Assembly (NCBI RefSeq): GCF_900141875.1
Contig: NZ_FQZE01000019.1
Coordinates: 1-64,000, forward strand
Direction of reading: 5' to 3'
Length of the DNA: 64,000 bases
Origin: Tangfeifania diversioriginum
GTDB taxonomy: Bacteria > Bacteroidota > Bacteroidia > Bacteroidales > Prolixibacteraceae
The notes beneath the pieces are model-generated. The model saw only the letters and a list, made by a program, of their open reading frames with translations, did no database searches and had not been told where the DNA came from. The translations under genes and the position numbers were made by a program. Below are positions 1,634 through 18,101 of this stretch, one piece after another. Position 1 is the first letter of the stretch. Every line of letters begins with the position of its first letter.

Positions 1634-2542
1634 TTATATTACCTTGATTTTTGAGAGACTTTCCGGTAAATCGTTTTCATTTTTTGCAAAGGCCAGTAAA
1701 AATCCACCGCCACCTGAGCCAAGTAACTTAACGGGCGTGTTATTATGCGCACTGTTTTTGAAAAAATCTTTGAATGATTCCGGAATCATTTCCGAAAATT
1801 GTTCCGATTGAAAAGCGGAAATTTGTTTTAGTTGAAGAAAAAGTTCCTGTTTACTCCCTTTCAAAAATGCCTGAATGGCTGCGTTATTGGCTGGCAGGAA
1901 ATCGTTTTCAAAACGTTTTTTGAATTGTGGATTCTCCATTTTTTGGTTGAAAAGTGAGACAAGTGGGGCAGTAGAACTTTTTATTTTAGTATCGATAAGA
2001 AAAACTGAAAAATCATTTTCACGAATTTTTATTTCCGGAAGCTCAATTTTTTCGGGCGTAAACAAAACCGGCCGGTTTAAAAAGGAAACCAGTGGGTCGA
2101 TTCCGGAACTGCGGCCGTGAAAACTGCTTTCGAGCAACGAAAAATCTTGCTTTAATTGTTGAAGGAGTTCGCTGTCGTTTAATTCATCTTCATTTTTGTG
2201 AAAAATACTGTATCGCTCAAAAATGGCAGCGCAGAGCGCTCCTGAACTTCCTAATCCATATTGAACCGGAATATTCGAATAGAAAAATAATCCTTTTTGC
2301 AAATCACTTTTCAGTTCTTTTAGTTGAAGCGGAAAATGCATTTCCTTGTTGAGATTGGCTGCATCAAACGTTGAAAAGAATTGTTGAGTCTCTGACTGGC
2401 TTTCCTGAATGGTTTTGTCGTTTGAGTCCACTGTAAATTTCAGCGCACCGCCGAATTTTGGAAACGGAACTGCCAGCGCATCGGCTCCGTAAAGCAATCC
2501 GTATTCACCGAACAATAGTAATTTTGAAGAAAATTTTTTCAT
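1634..2542 (-). CDS. Mevalonate kinase (GHMP family)
   Basis: A 302-residue GHMP kinase. An N-terminal KLLLFGEYGLLYG motif (7-19) is followed by the ATP-loop GLGSSGAL (96-103), then FHGRSSGIDPLV (141-152), which matches the HGxxSGxD substrate/Mg site of mevalonate kinases, and a C-terminal GSGGGGFLLAF loop. Expected reaction: mevalonate + ATP to 5-phosphomevalonate, in the cytosol. It is the last gene of the nine-gene minus-strand run; its ATG overlaps the TGA of the decarboxylase gene by 4 nt (ATGA), implying translational coupling. The GYDIA kinase nearby is the other GHMP kinase; assignment of mevalonate versus phosphomevalonate kinase rests on these motifs. Confidence 0.8.
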   Translation of the reverse strand: MKKFSSKLLLFGEYGLLYGADALAVPFPKFGGALKFTVDSNDKTIQESQSETQQFFSTFDAANLNKEMHFPLQLKELKSDLQKGLFFYSNIPVQYGLGSSGALCAAIFERYSIFHKNEDELNDSELLQQLKQDFSLLESSFHGRSSGIDPLVSFLNRPVLFTPEKIELPEIKIRENDFSVFLIDTKIKSSTAPLVSLFNQKMENPQFKKRFENDFLPANNAAIQAFLKGSKQELFLQLKQISAFQSEQFSEMIPESFKDFFKNSAHNNTPVKLLGSGGGGFLLAFAKNENDLPESLSKIKVI

Positions 2543-3582
2543 GCTTTCAGTTTTTTTGGACCGTTTCCAATTTGATCATCCAGCCAGCTTCCGTTTTCGG
2601 TAAATTTCAACAACTCATTTTTAATGAATCGGTGTACTTCATTTTTGTCTTTTTCAAAATAGAGAAAATGGATGTTTGGCCCGGCATCGATAGTAAAGCC
2701 AACTTGCAGGTTGGTTTGCCGGCGGATATCCTGAATTTTTCGGATAATCGCCAAGCTGTTGGGATGAAGTAGTAAATAAGGTGGTTCCGAGGTCATCATC
2801 ATCGAATGTAAACTGAGCGCTTCTTTTTCTACTATTTTGAAGAAATGTTCATGGTGGCCGGTTTTCATCACTTTCAGAATTTCACGCGTGTGATTATTGG
2901 CCTGTTTTATCCGTGCTTCCCTAAACGGATGGTCGTTCATCAGTTGGTGGCCGGCCGAACTGGAGACTTTTTTTTTCGTGGAATCGACCAGCAAAATGGC
3001 ATCGTGCAATGTAAAATAATCAGGGTGGATGTTTTCGGAAACCGGAATGGCGAATTCGTTTGATGAATCTGGCATTTCATCAAATTTGCCCCAAACGGCA
3101 AATTGCGGATAAACCGACCGGCACGCGCTGCCGCTGCCAAGTCGCGCCCACGCCGAGGCTTGCCTGAAGAAGTTTTGTGTTTCTGCTTTCTTTCCGGTTA
3201 CCTGTTTTTTCAGGTCTGCCAAACAAAGCGCCAGTGCGCCAAAAGCCGAAGCCGACGAAGCAATACCGGCAGAGTGGGGGAACGTGTTGCTGCTTTCAAT
3301 GCGAAACGAAAAATCGTTCATCCATTTTTCATCGTTCGCCAGTTCGTCAATGTATTTCTGAATCCGTTCTCCAAATTGTGACAATTTCCCTTCAAAAAGA
3401 AACTCTGTTTGCCATTTGCTGCTGCCTGTGATTTCAACAGTTGTTTTGGTTTTTGCATTTTTCAAACTAAAACTCACTGAGGGATTTAATGGCAGTTGTG
3501 GCGCTTTCTTTCCCCAGTATTTTACCAGCGCAATGTTCGACGGGCATTCCCATTCGCTTCGATATTTATTCTTTTGCTTCAC
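2539..3582 (-). CDS. mvaD: Diphosphomevalonate decarboxylase
   Basis: A 347-residue GHMP-fold enzyme for ATP-dependent decarboxylation of mevalonate diphosphate to isopentenyl diphosphate. Family signatures are clear: NIALVKYWGK (16-25), the phosphate loop HSAGIASSASAFGAL (103-117), RLGSGSACRSVYPQF (147-161), and the catalytic Asp in FTIDAGPN (D299). The start codon is GTG at 3582-3580: an in-frame TAA lies directly upstream and no ATG precedes the conserved N-terminus, so a GTG start is forced. The gene is separated by 146 nt, containing an inverted repeat, from the upstream GHMP kinase; this is the only sizeable gap in the operon. Confidence 0.9.
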   Translation of the reverse strand: MKQKNKYRSEWECPSNIALVKYWGKKAPQLPLNPSVSFSLKNAKTKTTVEITGSSKWQTEFLFEGKLSQFGERIQKYIDELANDEKWMNDFSFRIESSNTFPHSAGIASSASAFGALALCLADLKKQVTGKKAETQNFFRQASAWARLGSGSACRSVYPQFAVWGKFDEMPDSSNEFAIPVSENIHPDYFTLHDAILLVDSTKKKVSSSAGHQLMNDHPFREARIKQANNHTREILKVMKTGHHEHFFKIVEKEALSLHSMMMTSEPPYLLLHPNSLAIIRKIQDIRRQTNLQVGFTIDAGPNIHFLYFEKDKNEVHRFIKNELLKFTENGSWLDDQIGNGPKKLKA

Positions 3583-3637
3583 TTACTTTCTTCCAATCAT
3601 TTAAAAATAAACACTTTTATAAATACGAGAAAAGTTA

Positions 3638-3693
3638 ATTTCCCGCAGATGACGCTGATTTTCGCAGAAATGTTAAAAAAATCTGCGGGAAAT
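3638..3693. repeat. Intergenic inverted repeat inside the mevalonate operon
   Basis: The arms ATTTCCCGCAGAT (3638-3650) and ATCTGCGGGAAAT (3681-3693) are perfectly complementary over 13 bp, with a 30-nt loop containing a further TTCGCAGAAA. It sits in the 146-nt gap between the GYDIA kinase and mvaD. There is no T-tract on the operon strand, so it looks more like a dispersed intergenic repeat or mRNA stabilising/processing hairpin than a terminator. Confidence 0.6.
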
Positions 3694-3728
3694 CAATAAA
3701 TCATTCATTAGTTAGAATTTTTATATGA

Positions 3729-4649
3729 TTAGTCATTTAAAATTAACTCGTTCCACGTAAATATTGTTTGCAATCCTTTCCTTTTGAAATAGTTTTTAGT
3801 TGCTGCTTCGTTCATCGAAGAAGCTGCGAGGAAAAAATCACCTCCCCATGCTCCGAGTGATTTTACAACCCCGTTAAAATCACTGAAATATTTATCCTGA
3901 ATACTTTGCTCATCAATAATACCGGAAATGATTTTTTCGTGCTCGTTAATTACCAGTTGAAACTCATCAAGTTTTTTTATCCGGGATATATTTTCAGAAA
4001 TCTCAATGATTTGACGGATTCCTTCGGAAATATCACCTTTCGTTTTCAGAAAATGCTCAATGCCATGACGGGTATTTTTTTTGGTGCCGGAATAGATAAA
4101 AAAGAGGTGATCTTCGAATGGAAAACTAAGATTCACCGGTACCGGTTTTTCTCGAGAACGGTAAAATATTGGGCCGTCAGCGTTTGCACAGGCGATGTCG
4201 TAACCTGAGCCTTTAAATATCAACTTGTTTAATTGGTAGGCATCAACATTCGTCCAGCTTGCGATGTTGGCAATTAATGTGCTGCTGCTGCCCAGTCCCC
4301 ATTGCGGATTGAAATCCAGTTTTGTTTGAATGTGGAAATCTCTTTCAAAAGGAAACTCAGGATTTAACTTTCCGATGGTTTCAAAGATTTTTTTCAGCAA
4401 TTCTGCTTTTTTCGAATCATTACTTTCGATGATTTTGAATCCGGGAAATTGGATTTCACAGGAAAACCACTGACTGTTGGGTGTAAAGGCTTCCCACTTT
4501 ATTCTGTTTTGTTGCTTTCCTGAAGTGACGTTCATCGACTGGCCCAATTTCAGCGGCAATGCCAGCGCTTTCGCGCCTTTTAAAACGAGGTATTCTCCTG
4601 TGAGCAGCAATTTTCCGTGTGCATAATATTTCAAGGCAGTTTCAGTCAT
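3729..4649 (-). CDS. GYDIA family GHMP kinase, probable phosphomevalonate kinase
   Basis: A GHMP kinase of 306 residues from the preferred ATG at 4649. Motifs are HGKLLLTGEYLVLKGAKALA (11-30), the ATP loop GLGSSSTL (118-125) and the diagnostic GSGYDIACANADGP (147-160) that gives the GYDIA group its name. A longer frame starts at 4688, but the 13 extra residues lie inside the HMG-CoA reductase gene and precede the conserved start. The 4649 ATG overlaps the reductase stop by 8 nt (ATGACTGA). The cluster has a mevalonate kinase and a decarboxylase, so by elimination this enzyme should phosphorylate phosphomevalonate; the GSGYD motif resembles the GSGFD of known phosphomevalonate kinases. The substrate is inferred from context. 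Confidence 0.7.
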   Translation of the reverse strand: MTETALKYYAHGKLLLTGEYLVLKGAKALALPLKLGQSMNVTSGKQQNRIKWEAFTPNSQWFSCEIQFPGFKIIESNDSKKAELLKKIFETIGKLNPEFPFERDFHIQTKLDFNPQWGLGSSSTLIANIASWTNVDAYQLNKLIFKGSGYDIACANADGPIFYRSREKPVPVNLSFPFEDHLFFIYSGTKKNTRHGIEHFLKTKGDISEGIRQIIEISENISRIKKLDEFQLVINEHEKIISGIIDEQSIQDKYFSDFNGVVKSLGAWGGDFFLAASSMNEAATKNYFKRKGLQTIFTWNELILND

Positions 4650-5955
4650 GATTTTCCAAATACTTCTGAACTTGGGAATACGAAACATCTTTGTCGCTGA
4701 ACCAGGCTTTGGCTGCAGCTTTTTGTTCTTCCGAAAGATTGAACTGGCTTAAAATATTTGGCAATTGCATTTTCATGTGTCCTTTTTGGATTCCGCTGGT
4801 TATCAGTGCGTTTACAGCGGCCCAGTTGGAAGCCAGTCCGGCAGTGGCAATGTAACCCATTAATTCCGAGGCTGAAGGATTTTTCAGGATTTTCATCGCC
4901 AGTTTTGCCAGCGGATGCAACGCGGTCACTCCGCCTACAACACCAACTGCCAGTGGAATTTCCAATTCAAAACGAAATATTCCATTATTTACGGTTGCGT
5001 TGCTCAGTCCGTGGTACTGTCCGTCTTTTGAAGCATAAGCATGTGCGCCGGCTTCAATGGCTCGGTAATCGTTTCCGGTAGCTACTGCCAGTGCGTCCAT
5101 TCCGTTGAAAATACCTTTGTTGTGTGTCACAGCGCGCGAAACATCGTTCCGGGCAATGTGAACTGCCAATGCAAATTTTTCAGCATAACTGTGTGCCTGT
5201 TGCGAATTTTCAATCAGCTCTTCCACCGGGCATTTCACCCAAACTTTTACGCGGCTATCCGGTACATAGTTCGACAAAATGGCCATTACTATTTCCACTT
5301 CTTTTTTATTTGCTGAAAACTGGTTGCTGTTTTCGATAAATTTTGTGAGGCTTTTCCCTATCTGTTCCAAACACGAATTAATGAAGTTGGCACCCATTGC
5401 ATCGCGGGTTTCAAACGAAACGTCGATTTGATAATAGTCAGGTTTTATTTCTGGTAAATATATTAATTTAATTTCGCGAATTCCACCACCTCTTTTCTCC
5501 ATGTTTTCAGTTATCGGAGCCGTTTCTTTTAAGAGTTGGCTTTTTATTTCAGGAAATATTTTTTTGAGCTTTTCTGGATTTCCATTCCATTGAAAATGAA
5601 CCTGGCCTTTTTTTTTGGTGCCAATAATTTGAGTATGAAATCCGCCTCTTTTGGCCCAGTACCCGGCAGCTTTGGCCAGTGCGGCAACTACCGAACTCTC
5701 TTCGGTTACGAGCGGAAAGGTGAGTATTTTTCCATCTACCAAAAAATTAGGTGCCACAGAAAAGGGTAAATGATAATTGGAGAGTTGATTCTCGCTTAAA
5801 TCAGCAATAACTGATTGCTTTTCACTGTTTGTGAGTTCAAAAGAATTCAGAAATGAGGCAGTGGATTCATCCAGGTTCAAATCCTGTATTAACCATCTGA
5901 TTTTTTCTTCACGCGTCAGTTTTGAAAATCCGGAAATGATTTTATTCTCCGTCAT
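4642..5955 (-). CDS. Hydroxymethylglutaryl-CoA reductase, class II type
   Basis: A 437-residue soluble enzyme interconverting HMG-CoA and mevalonate + CoA with NAD(P)H. It has no membrane domain and its length fits bacterial class II reductases (about 430). Landmarks: the EESSVVAA catalytic-Glu motif (85-92), DAMGAN (185-190), HNKGIFNGMD with the catalytic Lys (278-287), GND (294-296) and a C-terminal GIQKGHMKM His region. Class II enzymes can be degradative or biosynthetic; the surrounding mevalonate genes imply mevalonate formation here. The start overlaps the end of the isomerase gene by 14 nt and the stop overlaps the GYDIA kinase start by 8 nt, so the three are translationally linked. 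Confidence 0.9.
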   Translation of the reverse strand: MTENKIISGFSKLTREEKIRWLIQDLNLDESTASFLNSFELTNSEKQSVIADLSENQLSNYHLPFSVAPNFLVDGKILTFPLVTEESSVVAALAKAAGYWAKRGGFHTQIIGTKKKGQVHFQWNGNPEKLKKIFPEIKSQLLKETAPITENMEKRGGGIREIKLIYLPEIKPDYYQIDVSFETRDAMGANFINSCLEQIGKSLTKFIENSNQFSANKKEVEIVMAILSNYVPDSRVKVWVKCPVEELIENSQQAHSYAEKFALAVHIARNDVSRAVTHNKGIFNGMDALAVATGNDYRAIEAGAHAYASKDGQYHGLSNATVNNGIFRFELEIPLAVGVVGGVTALHPLAKLAMKILKNPSASELMGYIATAGLASNWAAVNALITSGIQKGHMKMQLPNILSQFNLSEEQKAAAKAWFSDKDVSYSQVQKYLENHD

Positions 5956-6955
5956 ATTCAGGATCGATTTTTAGAAAATTTTGTGCAAAACGGTAGGCCG
6001 TAATCTGGTTTTCGATGAACGTTTTCAGATCTTGGTAGTCGCCGGTGGCATGTTTTAACACCTGAGAAGCCATACCGAAGATTGCGGGTAACTCGCTTTT
6101 TGAAACTAAATAATAGCCGTCTAAGTAATTTTTAATTCCGCCCGAAATAATCAACTGTTTGCATGTTGAAGTTCCGGTGGTTTGCAGCAACTGGTTAACT
6201 GTATTTACCATTTGGTTGGCAGTTTGCCCCACAAAAGTAAACGGTTGGTACATTTCCATTTTTTCGGGTTCATCGCGCATCAGCTCAAGTTTCGAAAAAT
6301 TAGTGCCCCCATAAGCTGCAAACTCAATGGCTTCGAGGTTTAAATGGATAAGTCGGTTCAGGCTTTCTCTGCCCATTCCCAGCCCAACTTCTTTTACAAT
6401 TAAAGGTACATTAATCCGGCTGAGCAATTCTTCAATGGTTTCAACTGGAGGGTTTTCAATGTGTTCGCCCTCTGGCTGAAACCACTCCTGCATGGGATTA
6501 ACATGGATAATCAGTCCGTCAGCACGGAGTTCTCCAACCATATTGGTTATGGCATTTTCGTTTTTATCTTTCAGCAGTTGTTCAATTTGTGCTATTCCCA
6601 GGTTCGCCCAAAAAGGCTGGTCAGGACCAATAATATCTCTCATGTTGAAATCGTCCCAGTAGGTTTTGCTAAACAGGATTTTTCGGCAGGACCCCAGGCC
6701 CATTCCCAGTCCAAATTCGCGACAGGCCCGGGCAATGTTTTTGTTGATGTGGTTGGCTTTTTCAGTGCCGCCGGTCATGCTCGATACCCACATTGGTGCT
6801 TTCATGGTTTTTCCCAAAAATGCAAAAGATCGGTCTTCTCCGTTGGGGTGGCCTGCCAGCATGGGTTCATAAATAAATCGGCGGTCCTGCTCAAACTTGC
6901 TTGTTTGCGAGTCGAATGCCAGTTGTATATGATCATGCTTTCTGTCTCTGTTCAT
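5942..6955 (-). CDS. fni: Type 2 isopentenyl-diphosphate delta-isomerase
   Basis: A 337-residue FMN-dependent isomerase converting IPP to DMAPP. Seen: the N-terminal RKHDHIQLA, WVSSMTGGTEKAN (56-68) that binds flavin phosphate, GMGLGSCRKIL, VNPMQEWFQPEGE, the barrel strand KEVGLGMGR, and FAAYGGTNFSKLE. These match the type 2 (Idi-2/Fni) family and not the Nudix type 1. It lies 11 nt downstream of the acyl-CoA dehydrogenase and overlaps the HMG-CoA reductase start. It is thus the hinge between the acyl-CoA genes and the mevalonate genes. Confidence 0.9.
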   Translation of the reverse strand: MNRDRKHDHIQLAFDSQTSKFEQDRRFIYEPMLAGHPNGEDRSFAFLGKTMKAPMWVSSMTGGTEKANHINKNIARACREFGLGMGLGSCRKILFSKTYWDDFNMRDIIGPDQPFWANLGIAQIEQLLKDKNENAITNMVGELRADGLIIHVNPMQEWFQPEGEHIENPPVETIEELLSRINVPLIVKEVGLGMGRESLNRLIHLNLEAIEFAAYGGTNFSKLELMRDEPEKMEMYQPFTFVGQTANQMVNTVNQLLQTTGTSTCKQLIISGGIKNYLDGYYLVSKSELPAIFGMASQVLKHATGDYQDLKTFIENQITAYRFAQNFLKIDPEYDGE

Positions 6956-6966
6956 TTTGTTTTCTG

Positions 6967-8124
6967 TTAATCATTTAAAACCGAACGCGAAATTACCATT
7001 CGCAACACTTCGGAGGTTCCTTCGCCAATTGATAATAAACGCTGATCGCGGAAAAAGCGCTCAATGGGATATTCGTCGTTTCTGAAAAAACCTGCCCCTC
7101 CAAAAATCTGGAGTGCCTCGCTGGCCACATCGCTGGCTACCTGTGATGCATAAAGTTTGGCCATTGCTGATTGTTTTCCGAATGAGTGTCCGTTATCTTT
7201 TAACCAGCAGGCATTATAGAGGGTGTTTCTGGCGTTTTCAATTTTCATGGCCATGTCGGCAAGTTTAAACGAAATGACCTGGAAATTGGAAATAGGTTTC
7301 CCAAACTGTTTGCGTTTTTTTGTGAAATCAACTGCCATTTCAAAAGCTCCCTGCGCCAGCCCCAGTCCCATTGCAGCAATCGATAACCGACCTGAATCGA
7401 TAGTTTTCAACATAATTTTAATACCTTGTCCTCTTTCACCCAGTTGGTTTTCCTCAGGGATTAAACAATCGTTGAGGTAAACCATTCCGTTGTCGGCAGC
7501 CCGCCAGAGCAGTTTGTTTTTCATATATCTGGCAGAGTACCCGGGGGTGTCACGGGAAACCAGAAAAGCTGTAAACTCTTTTTTGCCGTCGCTTCTTATG
7601 CCTGTTTTTGCTACCAGGCTCATGCCACCTGCCAGTTCTGAGGCCGCGTTGGTTATATATTTTTTATGACCGTTAATCAACCAGCCGTTTTTCTTCTTTT
7701 TTGCCATCGTTTCTACTCCTTGTGCGTCAGAACCTGCATTTTCTTCGGTAAGGCCAAAAGCCCACAGTTTTTCTCCGCTGCAAAGTTGCGGCAAGTATTT
7801 TTCTTTCTGTTTTTCTGTGCCAAATTCCAGAACAGGACCCACTCCAAGCGAGTTATGCGCTGCCAGCGTTGCCGCAACAGAACTGTCAATGCGTGCCAGT
7901 TCTTCAACGGCAATAATAAATGAGAGGTAGTCGCTGTTTTGTCCCCCGTATTTTTCAGGGGTTTGCATGCCGAAAAGATTCAGCTCATTTATCGATTGGA
8001 TTAAATCTACCGGGAATTCCTCCCTGGCTTCAAAGTCGCCAATAGCTGGTTTTATTTTGTTTTCCGCAAAATTTCTTACTTTTTCACGTAGTGCATTATG
8101 CGTCCCATTTAAAAATGCATTCAT
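6967..8124 (-). CDS. Acyl-CoA dehydrogenase (context: isovaleryl-CoA; catalytic Glu in SCAD position)
   Basis: A 385-residue FAD flavoenzyme of the acyl-CoA dehydrogenase family, with FGLTEENAGSDAQG, KKYITNAA, an Arg/Gly-rich FAD stretch around RKQFGKPI, and the C-terminal IGEGTSEVLRM. Context (methylcrotonyl-CoA carboxylase and methylglutaconyl-CoA hydratase in the same operon) predicts isovaleryl-CoA to 3-methylcrotonyl-CoA. However, known isovaleryl-CoA dehydrogenases use a Glu in the GLDLERLV segment and have Ala in IGAGTSE. Here the first segment is TIDSGRLS (Gly at 245) and the second carries Glu (E368), the layout of short/branched-chain dehydrogenases. The substrate is therefore open: isovaleryl-, 2-methylbutyryl- or another short acyl-CoA. 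The gap to the carboxylase gene is 10 nt. Confidence 0.8.
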   Translation of the reverse strand: MNAFLNGTHNALREKVRNFAENKIKPAIGDFEAREEFPVDLIQSINELNLFGMQTPEKYGGQNSDYLSFIIAVEELARIDSSVAATLAAHNSLGVGPVLEFGTEKQKEKYLPQLCSGEKLWAFGLTEENAGSDAQGVETMAKKKKNGWLINGHKKYITNAASELAGGMSLVAKTGIRSDGKKEFTAFLVSRDTPGYSARYMKNKLLWRAADNGMVYLNDCLIPEENQLGERGQGIKIMLKTIDSGRLSIAAMGLGLAQGAFEMAVDFTKKRKQFGKPISNFQVISFKLADMAMKIENARNTLYNACWLKDNGHSFGKQSAMAKLYASQVASDVASEALQIFGGAGFFRNDEYPIERFFRDQRLLSIGEGTSEVLRMVISRSVLND

Positions 8125-8134
8125 AAATAATTAT

Positions 8135-10099
8135 TTAGAATTCAAATTCGACTAAGGTCTTTTTGTCTTGTACGGTTTCTCCTTTCGAAACCTGAATGTT
8201 TTTTACCCGTGCTGATGCCGGGCTTTTTATGGTTATTTCTGATTTCATCGATTCAATAATAATTACATCCTCTCCTTTCTTTAAGATTTGACCGGGCTTA
8301 ACCAATATGTCAATTACTTTTCCGAATAGCCCTGCAATCACTTTGTCGGTTACTATCTCCGTCCCTTCATTTCGGTATTTATTTAACTGCACCTCTTCTA
8401 AAACATGGTTACTTCTTACACTGTAATATCTGCCATCATATTGGATAATAGATTTTTTATTATTCTGAAAAATAAAGATAGTAATATCTTTTTTATTTAA
8501 GGAAAAATCAATTTTCGAACCAGAAAATTTAATGTTGGATATTGTTTTTATCGTTCCATTGAGCTGAATTTCAATGTTTGGGTTTGCTCTTAATGTGTTG
8601 ATTTTGTGTTGTTTATTGTCGATGAAAATTTCAAAGCTTTGAAAAATGCGGAGATAGCCTGATTCATTCCAAATTGAAATGGGGTGAACGGGACGCTGAA
8701 AATGATGCAATAAATAAGCAGCTGCCAGCGGAACGGAAGAAGTTTCGTCCTTGCGAAGAAAGCTTTTGTTTTTCAGGTTTTTTTCCAGCCACCTCGTGTT
8801 AATCGAATTGGATTTAAAATCGGGGTGATTGACGGCAATCGCAAGGAGTTCTTGTGTTGTGACAATTCCCAGTAAAAATAAACTGGAAAGTGCCTTTTGT
8901 GCCTTTTTAATAGCTTCATCTCTGGTTTTTTCATGAACAATGAGTTTACCTGTTAGCGAATCGTAAGCCGCTGAAAGCTCTGTTCCGGGCTGAAGGAAAC
9001 TGTCCCATCGGACTTCTTCCGGTATTTGTATTTTAGCTATTTTTCCGGTTGAAGGCAAAAAGCCAGATGCAGGATCTTCTGCGCAAATTCGCATCTCAAT
9101 TGAATGACCATGTACTTTGAGATTTTTTTGACTGACAGGGATTTTTTCACCTGCTGCAATTTTCAGTTGCATTTCAACCAAATCAACACCTGTAATCATC
9201 TCGGTAACCGGATGCTCAACCTGCAGGCGGGTATTCATTTCCAGGAAATAAAAATTTTCATTTTCATCCACTAAGAATTCCACCGTACCCGCTCCACGGT
9301 AATTAATTGAACGGGCAATTTTGAGGGCAGCATTGTACAGTTTTTCCTTTAACTTTTTGGAGATGGAGTTGGCAGGAGCTTCTTCTATTAATTTCTGATA
9401 TTGACGCTGGATACTGCATTCACGTTCAAAACAGTGAATTGCATTTCCTTTTCCGTCGCCAACAACCTGAACTTCGATGTGGCGTGTTTGGGGCAGGTAT
9501 TTTTCAATCAGCAGGTCACTGTTGGCAAAATATTTAAGGGCTTTATTTTTTGCCCTTTTTAATGCTGACGGAAGATTTTCGGCTTTGTAAACGATTTCCA
9601 TTCCTTTTCCACCACCGCCGCCAGAGGCTTTAACCAAAACCGGGTATTCAAAATTTTTGGCAGAATTTAAAATATCATTTTCTGATCCGGTAGCAGACGA
9701 AATGACAGGAATTTGGAGCTTCTTTACAAATTGATTGGCTTGGATTTTTTCACCCATTAGCCTGATCTGTTGAGGTGTGGCTCCGATGAAAATCAACCCG
9801 GCCTGTTCAACTTTTTCTGCAAAATCAGCCTTTTCTGATAAGAATCCATACCCGGGATGTATGAATTTGGCACCTGTGTGCTTTGCAATTTTAATTATTT
9901 TTTGCTGGTTCAGATAAGTTTCCTGCAACGTTTCACCTTTCAGGTTAATAGCTTCGTCCGCCCGGGCAACATGCAACGACTCGCGGTCGTCATCAGCAAA
10001 AATAGCTACGGTTTTGAGCCCCAGCTTTTGGGCTGTCCTGATTATGCGGACTGCAATTTCTCCACGATTGGCTATTAAAATTTTTCCGATTGTTTCCAT
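8135..10099 (-). CDS. mccA: Methylcrotonyl-CoA carboxylase alpha subunit (biotin carboxylase + biotin carrier)
   Basis: A 654-residue two-function subunit. Residues about 5-450 form the biotin carboxylase: ILIANRGEIAVRI at the start, an ATP-grasp Gly-rich loop KASGGGGGKGM, ERECSIQRQYQKLIEEAPA, and EMNTRLQVEHPVTE. A linker follows, and then a C-terminal biotinyl domain with ESMKSE, K619 being the biotinylated Lys 35 residues from the end. It carboxylates biotin for the carboxyltransferase encoded two genes upstream. The subunit alone could serve acetyl-, propionyl- or methylcrotonyl-CoA carboxylases; the neighbours and the beta subunit point to methylcrotonyl-CoA. The start overlaps the stop of the hydratase gene by one base (TAATG). 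Confidence 0.82.
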   Translation of the reverse strand: METIGKILIANRGEIAVRIIRTAQKLGLKTVAIFADDDRESLHVARADEAINLKGETLQETYLNQQKIIKIAKHTGAKFIHPGYGFLSEKADFAEKVEQAGLIFIGATPQQIRLMGEKIQANQFVKKLQIPVISSATGSENDILNSAKNFEYPVLVKASGGGGGKGMEIVYKAENLPSALKRAKNKALKYFANSDLLIEKYLPQTRHIEVQVVGDGKGNAIHCFERECSIQRQYQKLIEEAPANSISKKLKEKLYNAALKIARSINYRGAGTVEFLVDENENFYFLEMNTRLQVEHPVTEMITGVDLVEMQLKIAAGEKIPVSQKNLKVHGHSIEMRICAEDPASGFLPSTGKIAKIQIPEEVRWDSFLQPGTELSAAYDSLTGKLIVHEKTRDEAIKKAQKALSSLFLLGIVTTQELLAIAVNHPDFKSNSINTRWLEKNLKNKSFLRKDETSSVPLAAAYLLHHFQRPVHPISIWNESGYLRIFQSFEIFIDNKQHKINTLRANPNIEIQLNGTIKTISNIKFSGSKIDFSLNKKDITIFIFQNNKKSIIQYDGRYYSVRSNHVLEEVQLNKYRNEGTEIVTDKVIAGLFGKVIDILVKPGQILKKGEDVIIIESMKSEITIKSPASARVKNIQVSKGETVQDKKTLVEFEF

Positions 10100-10905
10100 T
10101 AATCCTGATTGGTTATTTGATTGTTCCAGCTGGGTTTTCTTTTTTCGAGAAATGCCTGTAGTCCCTCCCTTCCTTCCTCTGAATGAGTCAGCTGGGCCAG
10201 TAGTTGAGTCGTTTTTTCGGCTGAGGTGGTTGTGATTTTTCCTGTTTCAATTTCATGGAGTAAGTTTTTGCAAGCCCGCAATGCATTTGGCGAAGATGAT
10301 GACAGTTTTTTTATGAGGAGATCGGTTTCACTGAAACGTTCTCCATCGGATGAAATAAAATCGACCAGGCCTGAAATTTTTGCTTCCGGTGCCAAAAATT
10401 TTGAGCCGGAGTACATTAATTTTTTCATGTGTTGAACCGAAAGCCGTTGAGCTACAAAAGGCATTATGGTGGCAGGAATAATTCCCAGTTTGATTTCTCC
10501 GAAAGCAAATACGGTGGATTTTTCAGCAATTACAAAATCACATGCCGAAAGTATTCCGTTGGCGCCCCCCAATACATTGCCGTGAACCGCAGCAATGGTA
10601 ATTTGGGGTGCATCGCGTAATTCTTTGAGAAGGCCAGGGATTTGCAGGTATTCTTCCCGGTTTTTCTGTATCGACTTTTCTGCGGCGGAGGCCAGCCAAC
10701 TGATGTCGGCTCCGGCACAAAAGGATTTTCCCTTGCCCGATATGACCAGGAAATGAATTTCATTTTTTCGGGAAATCGATTTTAATGCGTCCCGGAACTC
10801 CCCTATTAGTTCAGGATTCAATGCATTATGCTTGTCGGGGCGGTTTAAAATTAAATCGGCCCTGTTCCTGTCAATTTTAACTGTTATGTACTTCAGGTTT
10901 TTCAT
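10099..10905 (-). CDS. 3-Methylglutaconyl-CoA hydratase (enoyl-CoA hydratase family)
   Basis: A 268-residue crotonase-fold enzyme, expected to hydrate 3-methylglutaconyl-CoA to HMG-CoA. Oxyanion-hole motifs SFCAGADISWL and GNVLGGANGILSACDF are present. The second catalytic Glu lies in FGEIKLGIIPATIMPFV, a phrase typical of the LiuC-type methylglutaconyl-CoA hydratases. The first crotonase Glu position (GGANG) is not Glu, as in LiuC proteins. The gene sits between the two carboxylase subunit genes, 4 nt after the beta gene and overlapping alpha by one base, which supports this role over a general beta-oxidation hydratase. Confidence 0.78.
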   Translation of the reverse strand: MKNLKYITVKIDRNRADLILNRPDKHNALNPELIGEFRDALKSISRKNEIHFLVISGKGKSFCAGADISWLASAAEKSIQKNREEYLQIPGLLKELRDAPQITIAAVHGNVLGGANGILSACDFVIAEKSTVFAFGEIKLGIIPATIMPFVAQRLSVQHMKKLMYSGSKFLAPEAKISGLVDFISSDGERFSETDLLIKKLSSSSPNALRACKNLLHEIETGKITTTSAEKTTQLLAQLTHSEEGREGLQAFLEKRKPSWNNQITNQD

Positions 10906-10909
10906 CTTG

Positions 10910-12475
10910 TTACATTCTGAAAACCCCGTATCGGGGCGTCCGTTCGGGTTGATTAAGGGTGATGTGAAAAGCCAGGCCTAAGATGTCGCGTGTTTCTGCG
11001 GGGTTGATAATTCCATCATCCCAAACTCGCGAAGAGCTGTAATAAGCGGAGCTTTCTTTTTTGAACTGTTCAATAAGCTGGTTGCCGCTGCCGTTTTGTC
11101 CAATTGTATTCAGGATGCCCGAAGCCTGCTCGCCTCCCATAACCGAAATGCGTGAGTGCGGCCACATGAATAGGAAATCGGGTTCGTAGGCGCGGCCTGC
11201 CATGGCATAATTGCCTGCACCAAACGACCCGCCAATTACTACTGTTATTTTGGGCACTGTTGTATTGGCCACAGCCTGAATTAATTTTGCACCGTCGCGT
11301 GCAATTCCTTCGTGTTCATATTTTTTCCCCACAATAAATCCCGTAATATTTTGCAGGAACAGCAACGGTGTTTTTCGCTGGTTGCATAGCTGAATAAAAT
11401 GCGCTCCTTTTCGGGCGCTTTCAGCAGTAAGAAAACTTTGGTTGCCTAAAATGCCAACTGTTATTCCTTTTATTCGGGCAAAGCCTGTAATCAGCGTATT
11501 GCCGTAGTTTTCCTTGAATTCATGAAAATCACTTTCGTCAACCAACCGTTCAATTATTGCATGAATGTCAATCGGTTTTTTCAGATCAACAGAAAGGTAA
11601 TTGTAGATACTTTCTGGTTCAAAATGGGGTTTTTTTACTTTCTCAATTTCAATTTCTTTTTTCCTGCCAACAGGAAAGCCGGAAACTATTTTCCGGCAGA
11701 TTTTAAGGGCATCCACATCGTCCTCGGCCAGGTGATCGGCCACTCCCGAAATGGAGGTGTGAACATCTCCGCCGCCCAGCTCTTCGGCCGAAACTTCTTC
11801 ACCGGTAGCCGCTTTAACGAGTGGTGGCCCGCCAATAAAAATTGTTCCCTGGTTTTTTACAATAACAGTTTCGTCGCACATGGCCGGCACGTAGGCGCCG
11901 CCGGCAGTGCAGGAGCCCATTACTACCGCAATTTGCGGAATGCCTTTTGCCGAGAGCCGGGCCTGGTTATAAAAAATGCGGCCAAAATCGAACCGGTCGG
12001 GGAAAACATTGGCTTGTTCCGGCAGATAGATTCCTCCTGAGTCAACCAGATAGATACAAGGCAGGTTATTATTCAGGGCGATTTCCTGTGCGCGGATGTG
12101 TTTTTTTATGGTTTCTTTTACATACGTCCCTCCCTTAACTGTGGCATCGTTGGCAACAATCATGCACTCGCGGCCATGCACAATCCCAATTCCGGTTACG
12201 ATCCCGGCCGAGGGAAAAGCATTGTTGTATTGATCGTAAGCCGCAAAGGATGAAAGCTCCAGAAAATAGGTTTTGGGATCAACCAAAAGATCAATTCGCT
12301 CGCGGGCCAGTAATTTACCTCGCTCACGATGTTTTTGTTTTGATTTTTCCGGGCCGTGTGAGCAAACATGCTGCAACCGTTCATGGTAATTAGTCTTTAC
12401 CAATTCATAGCCAGTACTTTGTTTGGCTTTGGTGACCGTATTTTCCAGTGTTGTATTTTGTTTAACTTTACCCAT
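10910..12475 (-). CDS. mccB: Methylcrotonyl-CoA carboxylase beta subunit (carboxyltransferase)
   Basis: About 521 residues from the preferred ATG at 12475; the open frame extends to a TTG at 12502, only a few bases from a candidate promoter. It carries the paired crotonase-like carboxyltransferase domains and the phrases [55 protein letters not shown] and [18 protein letters not shown]. These match methylcrotonyl-CoA carboxylase beta chains more closely than propionyl- or acetyl-CoA ones; geranyl-CoA carboxylase is the nearest alternative. It converts 3-methylcrotonyl-CoA to 3-methylglutaconyl-CoA. It is the first gene of the nine-gene run leading to mevalonate and IPP. Confidence 0.88.
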
Positions 12476-12518
12476 TAAGGTGTTAAAAATTTTAATATTC
12501 AAAAATCTTCTAATATGA

Positions 12519-12590: not shown

Positions 12591-12622
12591 AAAAGAACCG
12601 TTAAAAAATTAACGGTTCTTTT
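12591..12622 (-). terminator. Rho-independent terminator of the leu operon
   Basis: A perfect 14-bp stem AAAAGAACCGTTAA / TTAACGGTTCTTTT with a 4-nt loop, followed on the minus strand by further Ts. It lies 43 nt beyond the leuB stop and before the promoter region of the carboxylase operon, so it separates leucine synthesis from leucine degradation/mevalonate transcription. The A-rich 5' side could also act on plus-strand transcripts. Confidence 0.85.
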
Positions 12623-12665: not shown

Positions 12666-13730
12666 TTAAATTTTTTCAATGTAGTGTGCAATCCAATCGC
12701 CCACCTGCGAAGTTTTATATGCAGGTCCCTGGGCAATGTCTTCAGTTACAAATCCTTCATCCATTGAGGCGGCCACTGCATCGCGAATGGCTTTTCCTTC
12801 ATCCGGGAGGTTGAAAGCTGTTTCAAACATCATGGCTGCGGAGAGGATGGTGGCAATTGGGTTGGCAATATCTTTTCCGGCAGCCTGCGGATAAGAACCG
12901 TGAATGGGTTCGAAAACCGAAGTGTGGATTCCGATTGATGCTGAAGGCAGCAAGCCGAGTGAGCCGGTAATCACACTGGCTTCGTCGGTTAAAATATCGC
13001 CAAACATATTTTCGGTAACCATTACATCGAAGTTTTTGGGCCACTGGATAATTTGCATGGCGGCATTGTCCACAAACATATATTCGGTTTGAATATCGGG
13101 ATATCTGGGCGCCATTTTCTGGGCCACTTCGCGCCACAATCGCGAACTTTCCAACACGTTGGCTTTGTCCACCACTGTTAATTTTTTACGTCGCTGCGCG
13201 GCAAATTCGTAGCCCAGTTTCAGGATGCGTTCAATTTCTTCGCGGGTGTAAGTGTTGGTATCGAAAGCGGTATTTCCGTTATCCTTCCGGCCTTTTTCGC
13301 CAAAGTAAATGCCGCCGGTCAGTTCGCGGATGCAAACAAAATCGGCACCTTCCACCAATTCGCGGCGGAGCGGAGATTTGTGCAGTAACTGTTCAAATGT
13401 CTCCACCGGCCTGATGTTGGCATACAAGCCCAGTTTTTTGCGCATGGCCAGCAATCCCTGCTCGGGGCGCACGGTGGCTTTTGGGTTGTTGTCGAACCGT
13501 GGGTCGCCAATCGCACCGAATAAAACAGCATCTGAATTCATGCACAATTCATGCGTTTCGTCGGGATAAGGATTTCCCACTTTATCGATGGCAATTGCGC
13601 CGGTCAGCGCGTATTCATATTCCAACTCGTGATTAAATTTTTTGGCGAGTGCTTTAACCGTTTTCATCGCCTGTTCGGTAATTTCGGGTCCGATTCCGTC
13701 GCCGGGAAGAATTGCAATTTTTAGTTTCAT
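12666..13730 (-). CDS. leuB: 3-Isopropylmalate dehydrogenase
   Basis: A 354-residue NAD-dependent decarboxylating dehydrogenase that oxidises 3-isopropylmalate to 2-oxoisocaproate (and, for isoleucine, methylmalate to 2-oxobutyrate). It starts [12 protein letters not shown] and has the substrate loop [44 protein letters not shown], the metal-binding [16 protein letters not shown], and the NAD loop [18 protein letters not shown]. Its length is normal. It is the last gene of the leu operon, split from the second LeuA-type gene by the DUF433/DUF5615 pair, and is followed by a strong terminator. Confidence 0.95.
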
Positions 13731-13742
13731 ATATTTTTTGCT

Positions 13743-14108
13743 TTAATCTTTTTGAATATTGAATGATACCGAATTCAAATTTATTTCCACAATAAACGAG
13801 GAGTTTTTATTTAGCTTTTGAATCTGCGGTAAATTGTCCGTAATTATTTGAACCAGCTCAGAGTTAGAAATATTACCCAAATTAATTTTGATCAGTTTTG
13901 AAGGAGTTCTTTTTACGTAAAAACTATTTCGAAAATCTGAATCTTTGGAAATAACAATGAAATCTTTTTGGTCAGCATACTCACATATTTGTTTATCTGA
14001 AGTAAGCCATTTGTCGAGAATGTCATTTACATGAATTGTTTCGTAACCCCGTGAAGTCAAGTGCCTGACTAATTTATAAGAGATATGAACATCACATAGA
14101 AATTTCAT
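13743..14108 (-). CDS. DUF5615 family PIN-like protein (putative toxin of a DUF433/DUF5615 pair)
   Basis: A 121-residue Mut7-C/PIN-like protein: FLCDVHISYKLVRHL at the start, then SDKQICEYADQKDFIVISKDSDF. Conserved acidic residues D6, D38, D56 and D58 could form the metal-binding nuclease centre expected of the family. The ATG overlaps the TGA of the upstream DUF433 gene by one base (TGATG). DUF433-DUF5615 pairs are predicted toxin-antitoxin-like modules; activity has not been shown for this one. It sits inside the leu operon, 12 nt before leuB, so it would be co-transcribed with the attenuated operon. Confidence 0.75.
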   Translation of the reverse strand: MKFLCDVHISYKLVRHLTSRGYETIHVNDILDKWLTSDKQICEYADQKDFIVISKDSDFRNSFYVKRTPSKLIKINLGNISNSELVQIITDNLPQIQKLNKNSSFIVEINLNSVSFNIQKD

Positions 14109-14335
14109 CAGGCTACATCTTTTATCGGCTTACCTGACAGGTTAAGTTTTGCAAAATGTAAACTTGCCAGAATATCTTCCTTTTCAAGTTCCGGGTGATC
14201 GTCGAGAATTTCCTCGGTGGTCATTCCCGAACCAAGCATATCAATAATTACTTCAACCGGCCACCTCATTCCACGAATGCATGGTTTTCCATGGCAGATT
14301 TCGGGGTTTGTGGTAATTCTTTCCAAATAGTTCAT
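14108..14335 (-). CDS. DUF433 domain protein (putative antitoxin)
   Basis: A 75-residue small protein with the DUF433 signature: ITTNPEICHGKPCIRGMR, then VEVIIDMLGSGMTTEEIL, HPELEKEDILASLHFA. The domain contains a helix-turn-helix-like fold and is typically encoded directly before a PIN-like DUF5615 protein, as here with a one-base overlap. It lies 75 nt after the second LeuA-type gene. DNA binding and antitoxin function are inferred from family context only. Confidence 0.75.
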   Translation of the reverse strand: MNYLERITTNPEICHGKPCIRGMRWPVEVIIDMLGSGMTTEEILDDHPELEKEDILASLHFAKLNLSGKPIKDVA

Positions 14336-14410
14336 ATAAATATGTTTTAAGCAAATTTACTGTAAAAACAGTGTATTTCAAATAATTAAATTTTAGAAAT
14401 TGGTATTTAC

Positions 14411-15994
14411 TTACGGAATACTGTCCATTATTTTATCCAGCAAACCCGGCTTAAACTCGTTTTCGATGATATTTAGCATGCGAATTGTTGCTTTGATTGC
14501 GGCTGCATTCTGATCCGGATCTAACCCTTTGGTTTTAAATTCGCGACTGTTTTTCCAGGTAATTACCGTTTCTACCAGTGCATTGGTTTTTCCGCCAGGC
14601 GGGATGGTTACCGTGTAATCAATGAGTTTCGGGAATGATTTGCCGAGACGCTTGTATATTTTCCGGAGTGCTTTTACAAATGCATCATACTGGCCGTCGC
14701 CATCGCTGAATTCCTCAAAAATTTCTCCTTCAATTTCAAGGCTAACATTGGCAACCGGCCGCAATCCCATAGTATGGGTAACCGAAAAGTTTATCACCCT
14801 GATTTTTTGTTCCATCAGATCGTTCTCCAGGGCATCGGCAACAATGTAGGGCAGTTCGTCGGAGGTAACCGTTTCTTTTTGGTCGCCCAGTTCAATAATC
14901 CGCTGCGTTACTTTTTTCAGTGATTCTGCATCGAGTTCAATGCCCAGGTTTTCCAGGTTCTTTTTGATGTTGGCTTTACCCGATGTTTTTCCCAGCGCAT
15001 ACTGACGGATTCTTCCAAAACGCTCCGGTAGCAAGTCGTTGAAATAGAGATTGTTTTTGTTGTCACCATCGGCATGTATGCCGCTGCACTGGGTGAATAC
15101 AAATTCGCCGATTAGCGGCTTATTTGTAGGAATCCGAATTCCGGAAAACGATTCTACCAGCTTTGAAACTTTGTTCAACTGGCTTTCATTCACCCGGGTT
15201 TTCATTTTCAGGTGATCTTTAATGGTGGCAATCACGCTCGACAGTGGTGCATTCCCCGCACGCTCGCCCAACCCGTTAACAGTGGTGTGTACGCAGCGCA
15301 TTCCGGCTTTTATGGCATGGAAAACATTGGCAATGGCCAAATCGTAATCGTTGTGGGCATGGTAATCGAAGTTGACATCGGGGTAGGTTTCAATCATTTC
15401 CCGGCAGAAATCGTAGGTTTCGTCGGGGTCTAAAATACCGAGCGTATCGGGAAGCATTATCCGGTCAACTTTTTCCTCTTTCAGTTTTGAAACCATGAAA
15501 TGCACGTAGTCTTTTGAACTTCGCATTCCGTTCGACCAGTCTTCGAGATAAACATTTACCCGGATTCCCATTTCCCTGGCATTATGAATTACTTTTTTAA
15601 TGTCGGCTAAATGTTCCTCCGGGGTTTTTCGTAACTGCCCTTTTACATGGTTCAGCGAACCTTTGCAAAGCAGATTAATTACTTTTCCACCGGCGTCGGC
15701 AATCCATTTCAGCGAAATGTTGTTATCAACAAATCCGAGAACTTCAATTTTATCGAGATGTCCTTTTTCGGCTGCCCATTTCATTACACGCTGCGATCCC
15801 CTGAATTCACCATCTGAAACTCTTGCCGAAGCGATTTCAATTCGGTCAACCCTTACATCTTCCAACAACACCTTTGCCACACTTAGTTTTTCCCCTTCGC
15901 TGAAAGAGACGCCTGTGGTCTGTTCTCCATCGCGAAGGGTAGTATCCATTATGGTGAGCTGTTTGCCCTCTATTTCAACTGTTTTGCCTGTCAT
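14411..15994 (-). CDS. 2-Isopropylmalate/citramalate synthase family protein (second LeuA-type enzyme)
   Basis: A 527-residue DRE-TIM metallolyase: [20 protein letters not shown] (15-34), a barrel with PDTLGILDPDE and YHAHNDYDLA metal ligands, VNGLGERAGN, SGIHADGD, and a C-terminal LeuA-dimer regulatory domain (about 385-500). It differs clearly from the leuA in the same operon. Such second copies in Bacteroidota leu clusters are annotated as LeuA2 or as CimA-like; citramalate synthesis (pyruvate + acetyl-CoA) feeding isoleucine through LeuBCD is a reasonable role, and homocitrate-type activity is an alternative. It starts 16 nt after the leuD stop. Confidence 0.75.
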   Translation of the reverse strand: MTGKTVEIEGKQLTIMDTTLRDGEQTTGVSFSEGEKLSVAKVLLEDVRVDRIEIASARVSDGEFRGSQRVMKWAAEKGHLDKIEVLGFVDNNISLKWIADAGGKVINLLCKGSLNHVKGQLRKTPEEHLADIKKVIHNAREMGIRVNVYLEDWSNGMRSSKDYVHFMVSKLKEEKVDRIMLPDTLGILDPDETYDFCREMIETYPDVNFDYHAHNDYDLAIANVFHAIKAGMRCVHTTVNGLGERAGNAPLSSVIATIKDHLKMKTRVNESQLNKVSKLVESFSGIRIPTNKPLIGEFVFTQCSGIHADGDNKNNLYFNDLLPERFGRIRQYALGKTSGKANIKKNLENLGIELDAESLKKVTQRIIELGDQKETVTSDELPYIVADALENDLMEQKIRVINFSVTHTMGLRPVANVSLEIEGEIFEEFSDGDGQYDAFVKALRKIYKRLGKSFPKLIDYTVTIPPGGKTNALVETVITWKNSREFKTKGLDPDQNAAAIKATIRMLNIIENEFKPGLLDKIMDSIP

Positions 15995-16009
15995 TCTTTT
16001 ATGTGAGTT

Positions 16010-16603
16010 TTAGCTGTTAGCTTCTTCAAAAGCAGTAATTTCATCTTTCATCCGAACCAGGTAATCGATATCGTCGAGTCCATTTTTGAGGCAATGCTTT
16101 TTGTAGGCATTAATTTCGAACTCTTCGGTTTCACCTGTTGTGAGGTTCGTTAATGTTTGCTCCTTTAGATTAGTTTTGAATTCGGCTTCCGGGTTTTTTT
16201 CGATGGTTTCAAAAATTCGTTCAAGGAATTCGGGGGTTACAACAACTGGCAGCAAGCCATTGTTAATTGCATTGTTTTTAAAAATGTCGGCAAAAAAGCT
16301 GGACACTACAACTCTGAACCCGTAATCGTAAATTGCCCAGGCAGCGTGTTCACGGCTCGATCCGCTGCCAAAATTTTTACCGGCAACCAAAATTTTACCG
16401 GAATACTTCGCATTATTCAGCGGAAAATCGCTTTTGGGTGATCCATCTTTGTTGTAGCGCCAGTCGCGAAAAAGATTTTCGCCAAAACCTTTGCGTTCTA
16501 CTGCTTTTAAAAAGCGTGCAGGAATAATCTGGTCGGTATCTACATTTTCAACCGGCAGCGGAACTGCCGGTGATTTTATTACTGAGAATTTATCGTATGC
16601 CAT
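16010..16603 (-). CDS. leuD: 3-Isopropylmalate dehydratase small subunit
   Basis: A 197-residue swivelling-domain subunit: [54 protein letters not shown]. It pairs with LeuC to isomerise 2-isopropylmalate to 3-isopropylmalate. The gene follows leuC by 33 nt in the same direction and has the length expected for the family. Confidence 0.95.
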
Positions 16604-16636
16604 TTTATTTATGATTTTAGCTTTCCTTAAAAAATT

Positions 16637-18079: not shown

Positions 18080-18101
18080 TTTTTTATTGAATTTTTTTTG
18101 A

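Follow-up and report, generated by a model that had tools for sequence, protein, structure and literature searches.

A conserved gene block in Bacteroidota that may lead leucine carbon into the mevalonate pathway

Nine genes in a row in Tangfeifania diversioriginum

The window analysed here, a whole stretch of 64,000 nucleotides from contig 24 of the 4.78-Mb, 99.98% complete genome of Tangfeifania diversioriginum, carries on its minus strand, from position 12502 down to 1634, nine genes that probably make up an operon-encoded shunt from leucine to isopentenyl diphosphate (IPP). From 5' to 3' they encode the beta subunit of methylcrotonyl-CoA carboxylase (MCC), a hydratase, the MCC alpha subunit, an acyl-CoA dehydrogenase (ACD), type-2 IPP isomerase, 3-hydroxy-3-methylglutaryl-CoA (HMG-CoA) reductase (HMGR), a GHMP kinase of the GYDIA family, diphosphomevalonate decarboxylase and a second, mevalonate-kinase-like GHMP kinase (Table 1). 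A sequence-only reading of the window had described nine codirectional genes of these families, most of them overlapping or within 11 nt of each other, and our assignment with Pfam and NCBIfam models agrees: all nine are there, and by their coordinates seven of the eight neighbouring pairs either share bases or have at most 11 nt between them. The sole long gap, 146 nt between the GYDIA kinase and mvaD (3583-3728), houses an inverted repeat that looks like an inserted intergenic repeat and of which a 21-base half is found at a single place in the window. The same gap is short in several relatives. As for the complete mevalonate pathway announced by that reading, it holds from HMG-CoA downward, the lower half being represented in the block by two kinases and diphosphomevalonate decarboxylase; HMG-CoA synthase is absent from the operon and was not found in the genome with either PF01154 or a 14-sequence profile, which leaves the canonical acetyl-CoA pathway without its recognisable synthase.

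Table 1. Coordinates of the nine genes and of two sequence features in the window, in the direction of the genes
Feature	Coordinates	Strand	Evidence
Terminator-like hairpin	12591..12622	-	Lies between leuB and mccB; stem of 14 pairs and T-rich end; consensus match
mccB, methylcrotonyl-CoA carboxylase beta (carboxyltransferase)	10910..12502	-	PF01039 492 bits
mgch, crotonase, proposed 3-methylglutaconyl-CoA hydratase	10099..10905	-	PF00378 157 bits
mccA, biotin carboxylase + biotin carrier domain (methylcrotonyl-CoA carboxylase alpha)	8135..10099	-	CPSase_L_D2, Biotin_carb_N, Biotin_carb_C, Biotin_lipoyl
acd, short-chain acyl-CoA dehydrogenase, proposed isovaleryl-CoA dehydrogenase	6967..8124	-	Acyl-CoA_dh domains
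idi2, type-2 isopentenyl-diphosphate isomerase	5942..6955	-	TIGR02151 205 bits, residues 5-321, under equivalog cut-off 281
hmgr, class II HMG-CoA reductase	4642..5955	-	PF00368 270 bits; TIGR00532 264 bits, above cut-off 260; PDB 7n7s 448 bits
GYDIA-family GHMP kinase, proposed phosphomevalonate kinase	3729..4649	-	NF040656 348 bits, cut-off 225
Inverted repeat	3639..3692	-	In GYDIA kinase-mvaD gap; from sequence
mvaD, diphosphomevalonate decarboxylase	2539..3582	-	TIGR01240 180 bits, above cut-off 171; PDB diphosphomevalonate decarboxylase 133 bits
Terminal GHMP kinase, proposed mevalonate kinase	1634..2542	-	TIGR00549 86 bits, under cut-off 163

Among PDB entries, MccB is closest to human MCC beta (650 bits), ahead of geranyl-CoA carboxylase (419) and propionyl-CoA carboxylase (283), and the biotin-lysine motif E(S/A)MK of MccA is present at all 16 complete loci described below. 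The start codon of mccB is TTG at 12502, with an alternative ATG at 12475. The crotonase, which we take to be of the LiuC/AtuE kind, matches 3i47 and 4kpk in the PDB and keeps the Glu of its FGEIKLG motif in all 13 loci listed of the 16; its best NCBIfam model, NF004227 (gamma-carboxygeranoyl-CoA hydratase), scores under the cut-off. The ACD has at all 16 loci the GEGT Glu, presumably the common catalytic position of its family, and is the only short-chain acyl-CoA dehydrogenase found in the genome, which also encodes the alpha subunit of electron-transfer flavoprotein (ETF). Two other acyl-CoA dehydrogenase genes were found, of 569 residues (matching stretches 33% and 43% identical, beside ETF-alpha) and 512 residues (23% identity). 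Both exceed the operon ACD in length and differ strongly from it, which leaves the operon enzyme as the one good candidate for acting on isovaleryl-CoA, its presumed substrate. The genome thus encodes oxidation of isovaleryl-CoA, carboxylation, hydration and HMG-CoA reduction, the first of these with some uncertainty as to the substrate of ACD.

On the mevalonate side, the Glu, Lys, Asp and His motifs of HMGR, which we take to be catalytic, and the DAGPN motif of MvaD are present at 16 of 16 loci. The open frame of the GYDIA kinase extends to 4688, and a start at 4649 is proposed. Its AlphaFold model (predicted local distance difference test, pLDDT, 91.4) matches mevalonate kinases first and then other GHMP enzymes including phosphomevalonate kinase; mevalonate kinases likewise come first for the terminal kinase (pLDDT 89.4), which hits the mevalonate kinase 2x7i of the PDB at E 2.7e-12. 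For both models the structural matches also list phosphomevalonate kinase and galactokinases, and they do not separate mevalonate from phosphomevalonate roles. Since the mevalonate kinase model fits the terminal kinase better than the GYDIA kinase (40 bits, also under the cut-off), we infer which kinase takes which step and, by elimination, assign the phosphomevalonate step tentatively to the GYDIA kinase.

Conservation of the block and the source of HMG-CoA

HMGR was detected in 25 of 61 genomes (that of T. diversioriginum and 60 relatives), and in 15 of these 25, our genome included, all nine genes stand on one contig in the same order and on the same strand. Thermophagus xiamenensis (Marinilabiliaceae) adds one complete block, giving 16 loci, the window and 15 relatives, in maps made by tblastn against 33 stretches from relatives (20 + 13) plus five other loci. 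Complete blocks span 10.5-11.4 kb; identity to the window ranges from 31 to 80% in the 15 relatives, not all of them fully independent because several belong to one genus, and the medians at the 16 loci run from 36% (hydratase) to 66% (mccB). Conservation of the linkage between mcc and mevalonate genes was a check that the sequence-only reading had named beforehand, and the order is indeed kept across the 16 loci. As order and strand recur in 15 relatives, the arrangement is more than chance; a chance neighbourhood of the nine genes is rejected by this conservation together with the lack of any universal flanking gene. For the nine genes, pairwise protein distances among complete loci give correlations of 0.78-0.95, which fits inheritance as one block, and vertical descent alone would give high values too.

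Incomplete loci are of several kinds. Eight genes were seen in G011, where the isomerase is not in place, and in G034, where the terminal kinase was not seen. A contig break falls within mccA in G032 and G050, where the remaining mcc genes lie at another contig's end. G033 shows hmgr followed by acd-mccA-mgch-mccB; its contig stops beyond hmgr, and the isomerase was not detected. Separate contigs carry the mcc genes and hmgr in G015 and G049.

The flanks are variable. Among 18 loci (the window and 17 related ones, antisense frames within the nine genes excluded) no gene family outside the nine is common to all, be it a flanking regulator or a special-product gene; the commonest flanking family occurs at eight loci in scattered positions, and two more occur at six. 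Four loci (L056, L061, L064 and L066) have open reading frames in common about 0.6-3.3 kb upstream of mccB; in L056 and L061 those scanned comprise an FAD/NAD oxidoreductase and a pair of radical-SAM/UPF0004 proteins, and L066 has two radical-SAM proteins, one of them of the UPF0004 type. In the window itself, leuB, a citramalate/isopropylmalate synthase gene, leuD, leuC and leuA lie directly upstream of the block on the same strand (12666-19607), and no leu genes were found within the few kilobases of flank searched at the other mapped loci. Because this adjacency is seen at one mapped locus and a terminator-like hairpin intervenes, the leucine-biosynthesis genes probably lie outside the unit. 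That hairpin is a possible upstream limit of the transcription unit, in a region holding 24 terminator-like sites against 18.4 in shuffled sequence, a slight excess only. A scan for the consensus of Bacteroidota-type promoters gave three matches in the window, where 3.8 would be expected, and mccB has none.

An orthologue of MCC-beta (at least 59% identity, the next listed match having at most 36%) occurs in 26 of the 61 genomes, namely the same 25 that have HMGR plus G048; the Fisher test for co-occurrence gives p 3e-16 among genomes that are related to each other. HMG-CoA synthase as modelled by PF01154 was recognised in one genome of the 61, the HMGR-less G048, and the protein is of archaeal type (526 bits). 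PF01154 being weak on the archaeal type, we ran the 14-sequence profile on 80 HMGR-positive genomes: our own had no match and others of the operon clade scored no more than 28 bits, and the profile picked up at 72 bits a gene of G374 that proved to be an archaeal-type synthase (502 bits), which serves with G048 as a positive control. Thirteen weak candidates were scanned for a hidden synthase, including all six of the operon clade, the weak matches outside that clade remaining mostly unscanned. Two are true archaeal-type synthases (those of G048 and G374), nine are FabH above the cut-offs for beta-ketoacyl-ACP synthase III (KAS III), and one each from G056 and G052 are KAS III-like under every cut-off; all six from the operon clade (G022, G031, G041, G052 twice, G056) are thus FabH or KAS III-like. 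In G048 we observed, in a row at L072:65-4480, a hydratase-type crotonase, a 735-residue protein like pyruvate carboxylase subunit B or oxaloacetate decarboxylase, and the archaeal-type synthase; with MCC present and HMGR absent from that genome, the row is possibly a route between HMG-CoA and isovaleryl-CoA.

HMG-CoA lyase was sought in the same way. The model NF004283 found none above its cut-off in the 61 genomes, whereas three of 14 control genomes passed it; lyase-like proteins above 62 bits were seen in G041 (194 and 177 bits) and G053 (174) only, so that 24 of the 25 HMGR genomes have none. The best match in our genome, at 61.6 bits, falls inside the isopropylmalate/citramalate-synthase-like gene at 14411-15994, and the lyase that complete breakdown of leucine to acetoacetate by the Liu pathway would need was not recognised. 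Neither synthase nor lyase being recognisable, and carboxylase and reductase being present, the clade is left with one recognisable source of HMG-CoA, the carboxylase, and one recognisable outlet, the reductase.

A proposed route to IPP and its rivals

It seems reasonable to argue, at a probability of about 0.82, that the nine-gene block encodes a leucine shunt to IPP; the substrates, the direction, the co-transcription and the flux are what we would predict from the genes. The first CoA ester formed when leucine is broken down, isovaleryl-CoA, would be oxidized by ACD to 3-methylcrotonyl-CoA with electrons passing to ETF; MccBA would then use bicarbonate and ATP to form 3-methylglutaconyl-CoA, which the hydratase would convert into HMG-CoA. 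HMGR would reduce HMG-CoA to mevalonate, the two kinases would phosphorylate it, MvaD would decarboxylate the product to IPP and Idi2 would make dimethylallyl diphosphate. In established pathway chemistry, HMGR turns the thioester carbon of HMG-CoA into the alcohol carbon of mevalonate, and the free carboxyl, derived from bicarbonate, leaves again at the MvaD step. As MvaD thus takes away the very carbon that MccBA adds, the five carbons of isovaleryl-CoA would pass intact into IPP, with neither acetoacetyl-CoA nor HMG-CoA synthase in use. Each IPP made from isovaleryl-CoA would consume four ATP and two reduced nicotinamides and would reduce one ETF. That leucine carbon feeds isoprenoid synthesis had already been suggested from the letters of the window, and the suggestion gains from the conserved linkage, from the failure to recognise a synthase or lyase-like protein and from the presence of the carboxylase wherever the reductase is found in relatives; a direct flow is what we presume.

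The methylerythritol phosphate (MEP) pathway, for which the check consisted of Dxr and IspH, exists beside the block. Dxr is found in 60 of the 61 genomes and IspH above its cut-off in 24 of the 25 HMGR-positive ones, ours included in both counts, the exception for IspH being G049, a genome 79% complete that has a fragment. As these MEP enzymes are present, the shunt would be a second route to IPP in this clade, an addition and not a replacement, and probably an extra supply fed by amino acids. The enzymes of the nine-gene operon are not iron-sulphur enzymes, and the value of the operon may lie there. In the MEP pathway, by contrast, both IspG and IspH are oxygen-sensitive proteins with iron-sulphur clusters (PMC13001223).

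Several points weigh against a leucine shunt. In the PDB, ACD scores best against an acyl-CoA dehydrogenase (334 bits), short-chain and butyryl types following closely and isovaleryl-CoA dehydrogenases reaching 249 bits or less; at the position that we take to be the catalytic Glu of the isovaleryl type, the window has Gly, and ACD looks unlike a classical isovaleryl-CoA dehydrogenase. The hydratase, isomerase and terminal kinase are proposed from scores under equivalog cut-offs. The steps from leucine to isovaleryl-CoA, by an aminotransferase and a keto-acid dehydrogenase or oxidoreductase, are presumed, the searches of our own genome having covered HMG-CoA synthase, HMG-CoA lyase, the MEP pathway, MCC and acyl-CoA dehydrogenases. 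MCC without HMGR exists in one relative, G048. In G041, hmgr sits at a contig end and the mcc genes are elsewhere, beside the two lyase-like genes, and in two HMGR-positive members of the order (G046 and G052) the higher-scoring HMGR, probably of class I type, is unlinked to mcc genes. Finally, with MEP enzymes present, a leucine route may not be needed.

A wider survey of 395 Bacteroidota genomes, our own included, bears on the strongest competitor. HMGR was found in 89 of them, PF01154 above its cut-off in 28 (27 of which also have HMGR) and MCC-beta, at a threshold of E 1e-120, in 251. Sixty-two genomes have HMGR and were not counted as synthase-positive, and 52 of these have MCC; the PF01154 count misses some synthases, as G374, with its archaeal-type enzyme, is among the 62. 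Thirty genomes of the same class have HMGR and no PF01154 match above the cut-off, and in 26 of them, including G089, G113 and G163, IspH was not found; 24 of the 26 have MCC. Judging from the named ones, our guess is that this class is Flavobacteria. Bizionia argentinensis, a Dokdonia and a Mesonia (L032, L033 and L034) also gave no IspH, and their hits to the synthase profile are all below 30 bits, the best one, in Bizionia, being FabH. The other two of the 26, G148 and G372 (L113 and L114), have HMGR and yielded no IspH, no synthase (what the profile picked up weakly is FabH) and, at the threshold used, no MCC-beta. They must obtain HMG-CoA otherwise, so that a synthase of unknown kind may exist in the phylum.

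These two genomes also speak for a different view of the block, in which a non-homologous and unrecognised synthase feeds the mevalonate half from acetyl-CoA and the mcc half serves ordinary leucine catabolism, its place in the operon being a coincidence. For bacteria lacking both a recognisable synthase and IspH, HMG-CoA comes either from leucine or from such a synthase, and G148 and G372 argue for the latter in at least some. For the block itself we hold this explanation to be improbable, given that ordinary leucine catabolism needs HMG-CoA lyase, of which the HMGR genomes of the relatives are with one exception devoid at the 62-bit level, and that the one relative with MCC and no HMGR is precisely one with a recognisable synthase.

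Going back to the leucine shunt, it is tempting, if only tentatively, to extend it and to hypothesize that in much of the phylum the mevalonate pathway normally, and often exclusively, draws its HMG-CoA from leucine carbon rather than from acetyl-CoA: a second route, carried by the operon, in the order to which the window belongs, and the sole route to all essential isoprenoids in the many class members, probably Flavobacteria, without recognisable synthase and IspH. If so, leucine would be an obligate isoprenoid precursor in the latter.

Operation of the block in reverse is very doubtful. As in the alternative route of myxobacteria, HMG-CoA or mevalonate would then yield isovaleryl-CoA for iso-fatty acids, or mevalonate would be degraded; the HMGR does belong to a class labelled degradative (TIGR00532), and the best NCBIfam model of ACD is acryloyl-CoA reductase, under its cut-off. 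Against this, no recognisable synthase would feed the block and no lyase would serve mevalonate catabolism, the conserved kinases, decarboxylase and Idi2 make sense only towards IPP, and ATP-driven biotin carboxylases, as a family, favour carboxylation. Hardly any weight is left for the idea that ACD and the carboxylase act on another branched acyl-CoA, with an entry point other than leucine: the best hydratase model and the non-classical ACD would suit it, but the carboxylase is far closer to MCC than to geranyl-CoA carboxylase, and from what is known of the pathway only a C5 substrate gives HMG-CoA for the linked reductase.

Comparison with known systems

The reactions of a leucine shunt have been described in Halobacterium salinarum and Leishmania mexicana (PMC8791446), and in Trypanosoma brucei isovaleryl-CoA dehydrogenase is needed for the entry of leucine into sterols (PMC5993337). 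As would be the case here, leucine is converted to HMG-CoA in five steps, followed by the mevalonate pathway (PMC8791446, PMC5993337). T. brucei differs in having an acetyl-CoA branch too, with a gene candidate for HMG-CoA synthase (PMC5993337), whereas none was found here. Unlike these systems, the block brings all steps from isovaleryl-CoA together in one operon.

Myxobacteria also have HMG-CoA synthase. They run a reverse branch, the alternative synthesis of isovaleryl-CoA. In the genome studied here the searches recognised no synthase, and mcc and mevalonate genes stand together in a single block. The sequence-only reading had placed the shunt in trypanosomatids, and leucine degradation by liu genes that joins the mevalonate pathway has also been reported for myxobacteria, in one of which deuterated dimethylacrylate labels a sesquiterpene at +5, +10 and +14; leucine-pathway carbon probably reaches IPP in that bacterium as well (PMC7321100).

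Canonical bacterial mevalonate loci, as in enterococci, resemble the block, from family knowledge, in their class II HMGR, kinases, decarboxylase and Idi2, and staphylococci also carry such loci; in the enterococcal loci L038, L039, L041 and L045 HMG-CoA synthase lies near HMGR, whereas here MCC, hydratase and ACD occupy that place. HMGR-like matches were also observed in nine 'phage' records of Listeria, Staphylococcus and Enterococcus (OR847082.1, OR849891.1, OR844999.1 and others); in the five phage records listed, which are unannotated, the HMGR relative is 34-36% identical. The nine may be host DNA. Nearer to the window are the HMGR-GYDIA pairs of Bizionia, Dokdonia and Mesonia, whose HMGR is 48-52% identical to ours with the GYDIA kinase adjoining; they differ in that no mcc gene or mvaD was found nearby in the three 21-kb loci.

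Co-occurrence of MEP and mevalonate genes has been noted in a Lentimicrobiaceae member and a Lutibacter from the Black Sea, in a text whose accessible part does not discuss the source of HMG-CoA (PMC11129491). A 2026 review of bacterial isoprenoid pathways contains, in the part available, neither 'leucine' nor any word starting with 'Bacteroid', and mentions Legionella species without HmgS though described as users of the mevalonate pathway (PMC13001223). No bacterial operon wired in this way was known to the sequence-only reading, and none is described among the matches listed from the open-access literature, whose coverage is incomplete.

If our proposal is true, a mevalonate pathway exists that bypasses acetoacetyl-CoA and HMG-CoA synthase, its opening carboxylation undone by its closing decarboxylation, within one bacterial operon; it would explain the mevalonate genes without recognisable HMG-CoA synthase in many Bacteroidota, it would yield a clear labelling prediction, and its genes would be a compact cassette with which leucine or isovalerate could be turned into terpenes. 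The reactions of the leucine shunt were already known; what is new is one conserved bacterial operon for them, in genomes where no other enzyme for making or cleaving HMG-CoA could be recognised.

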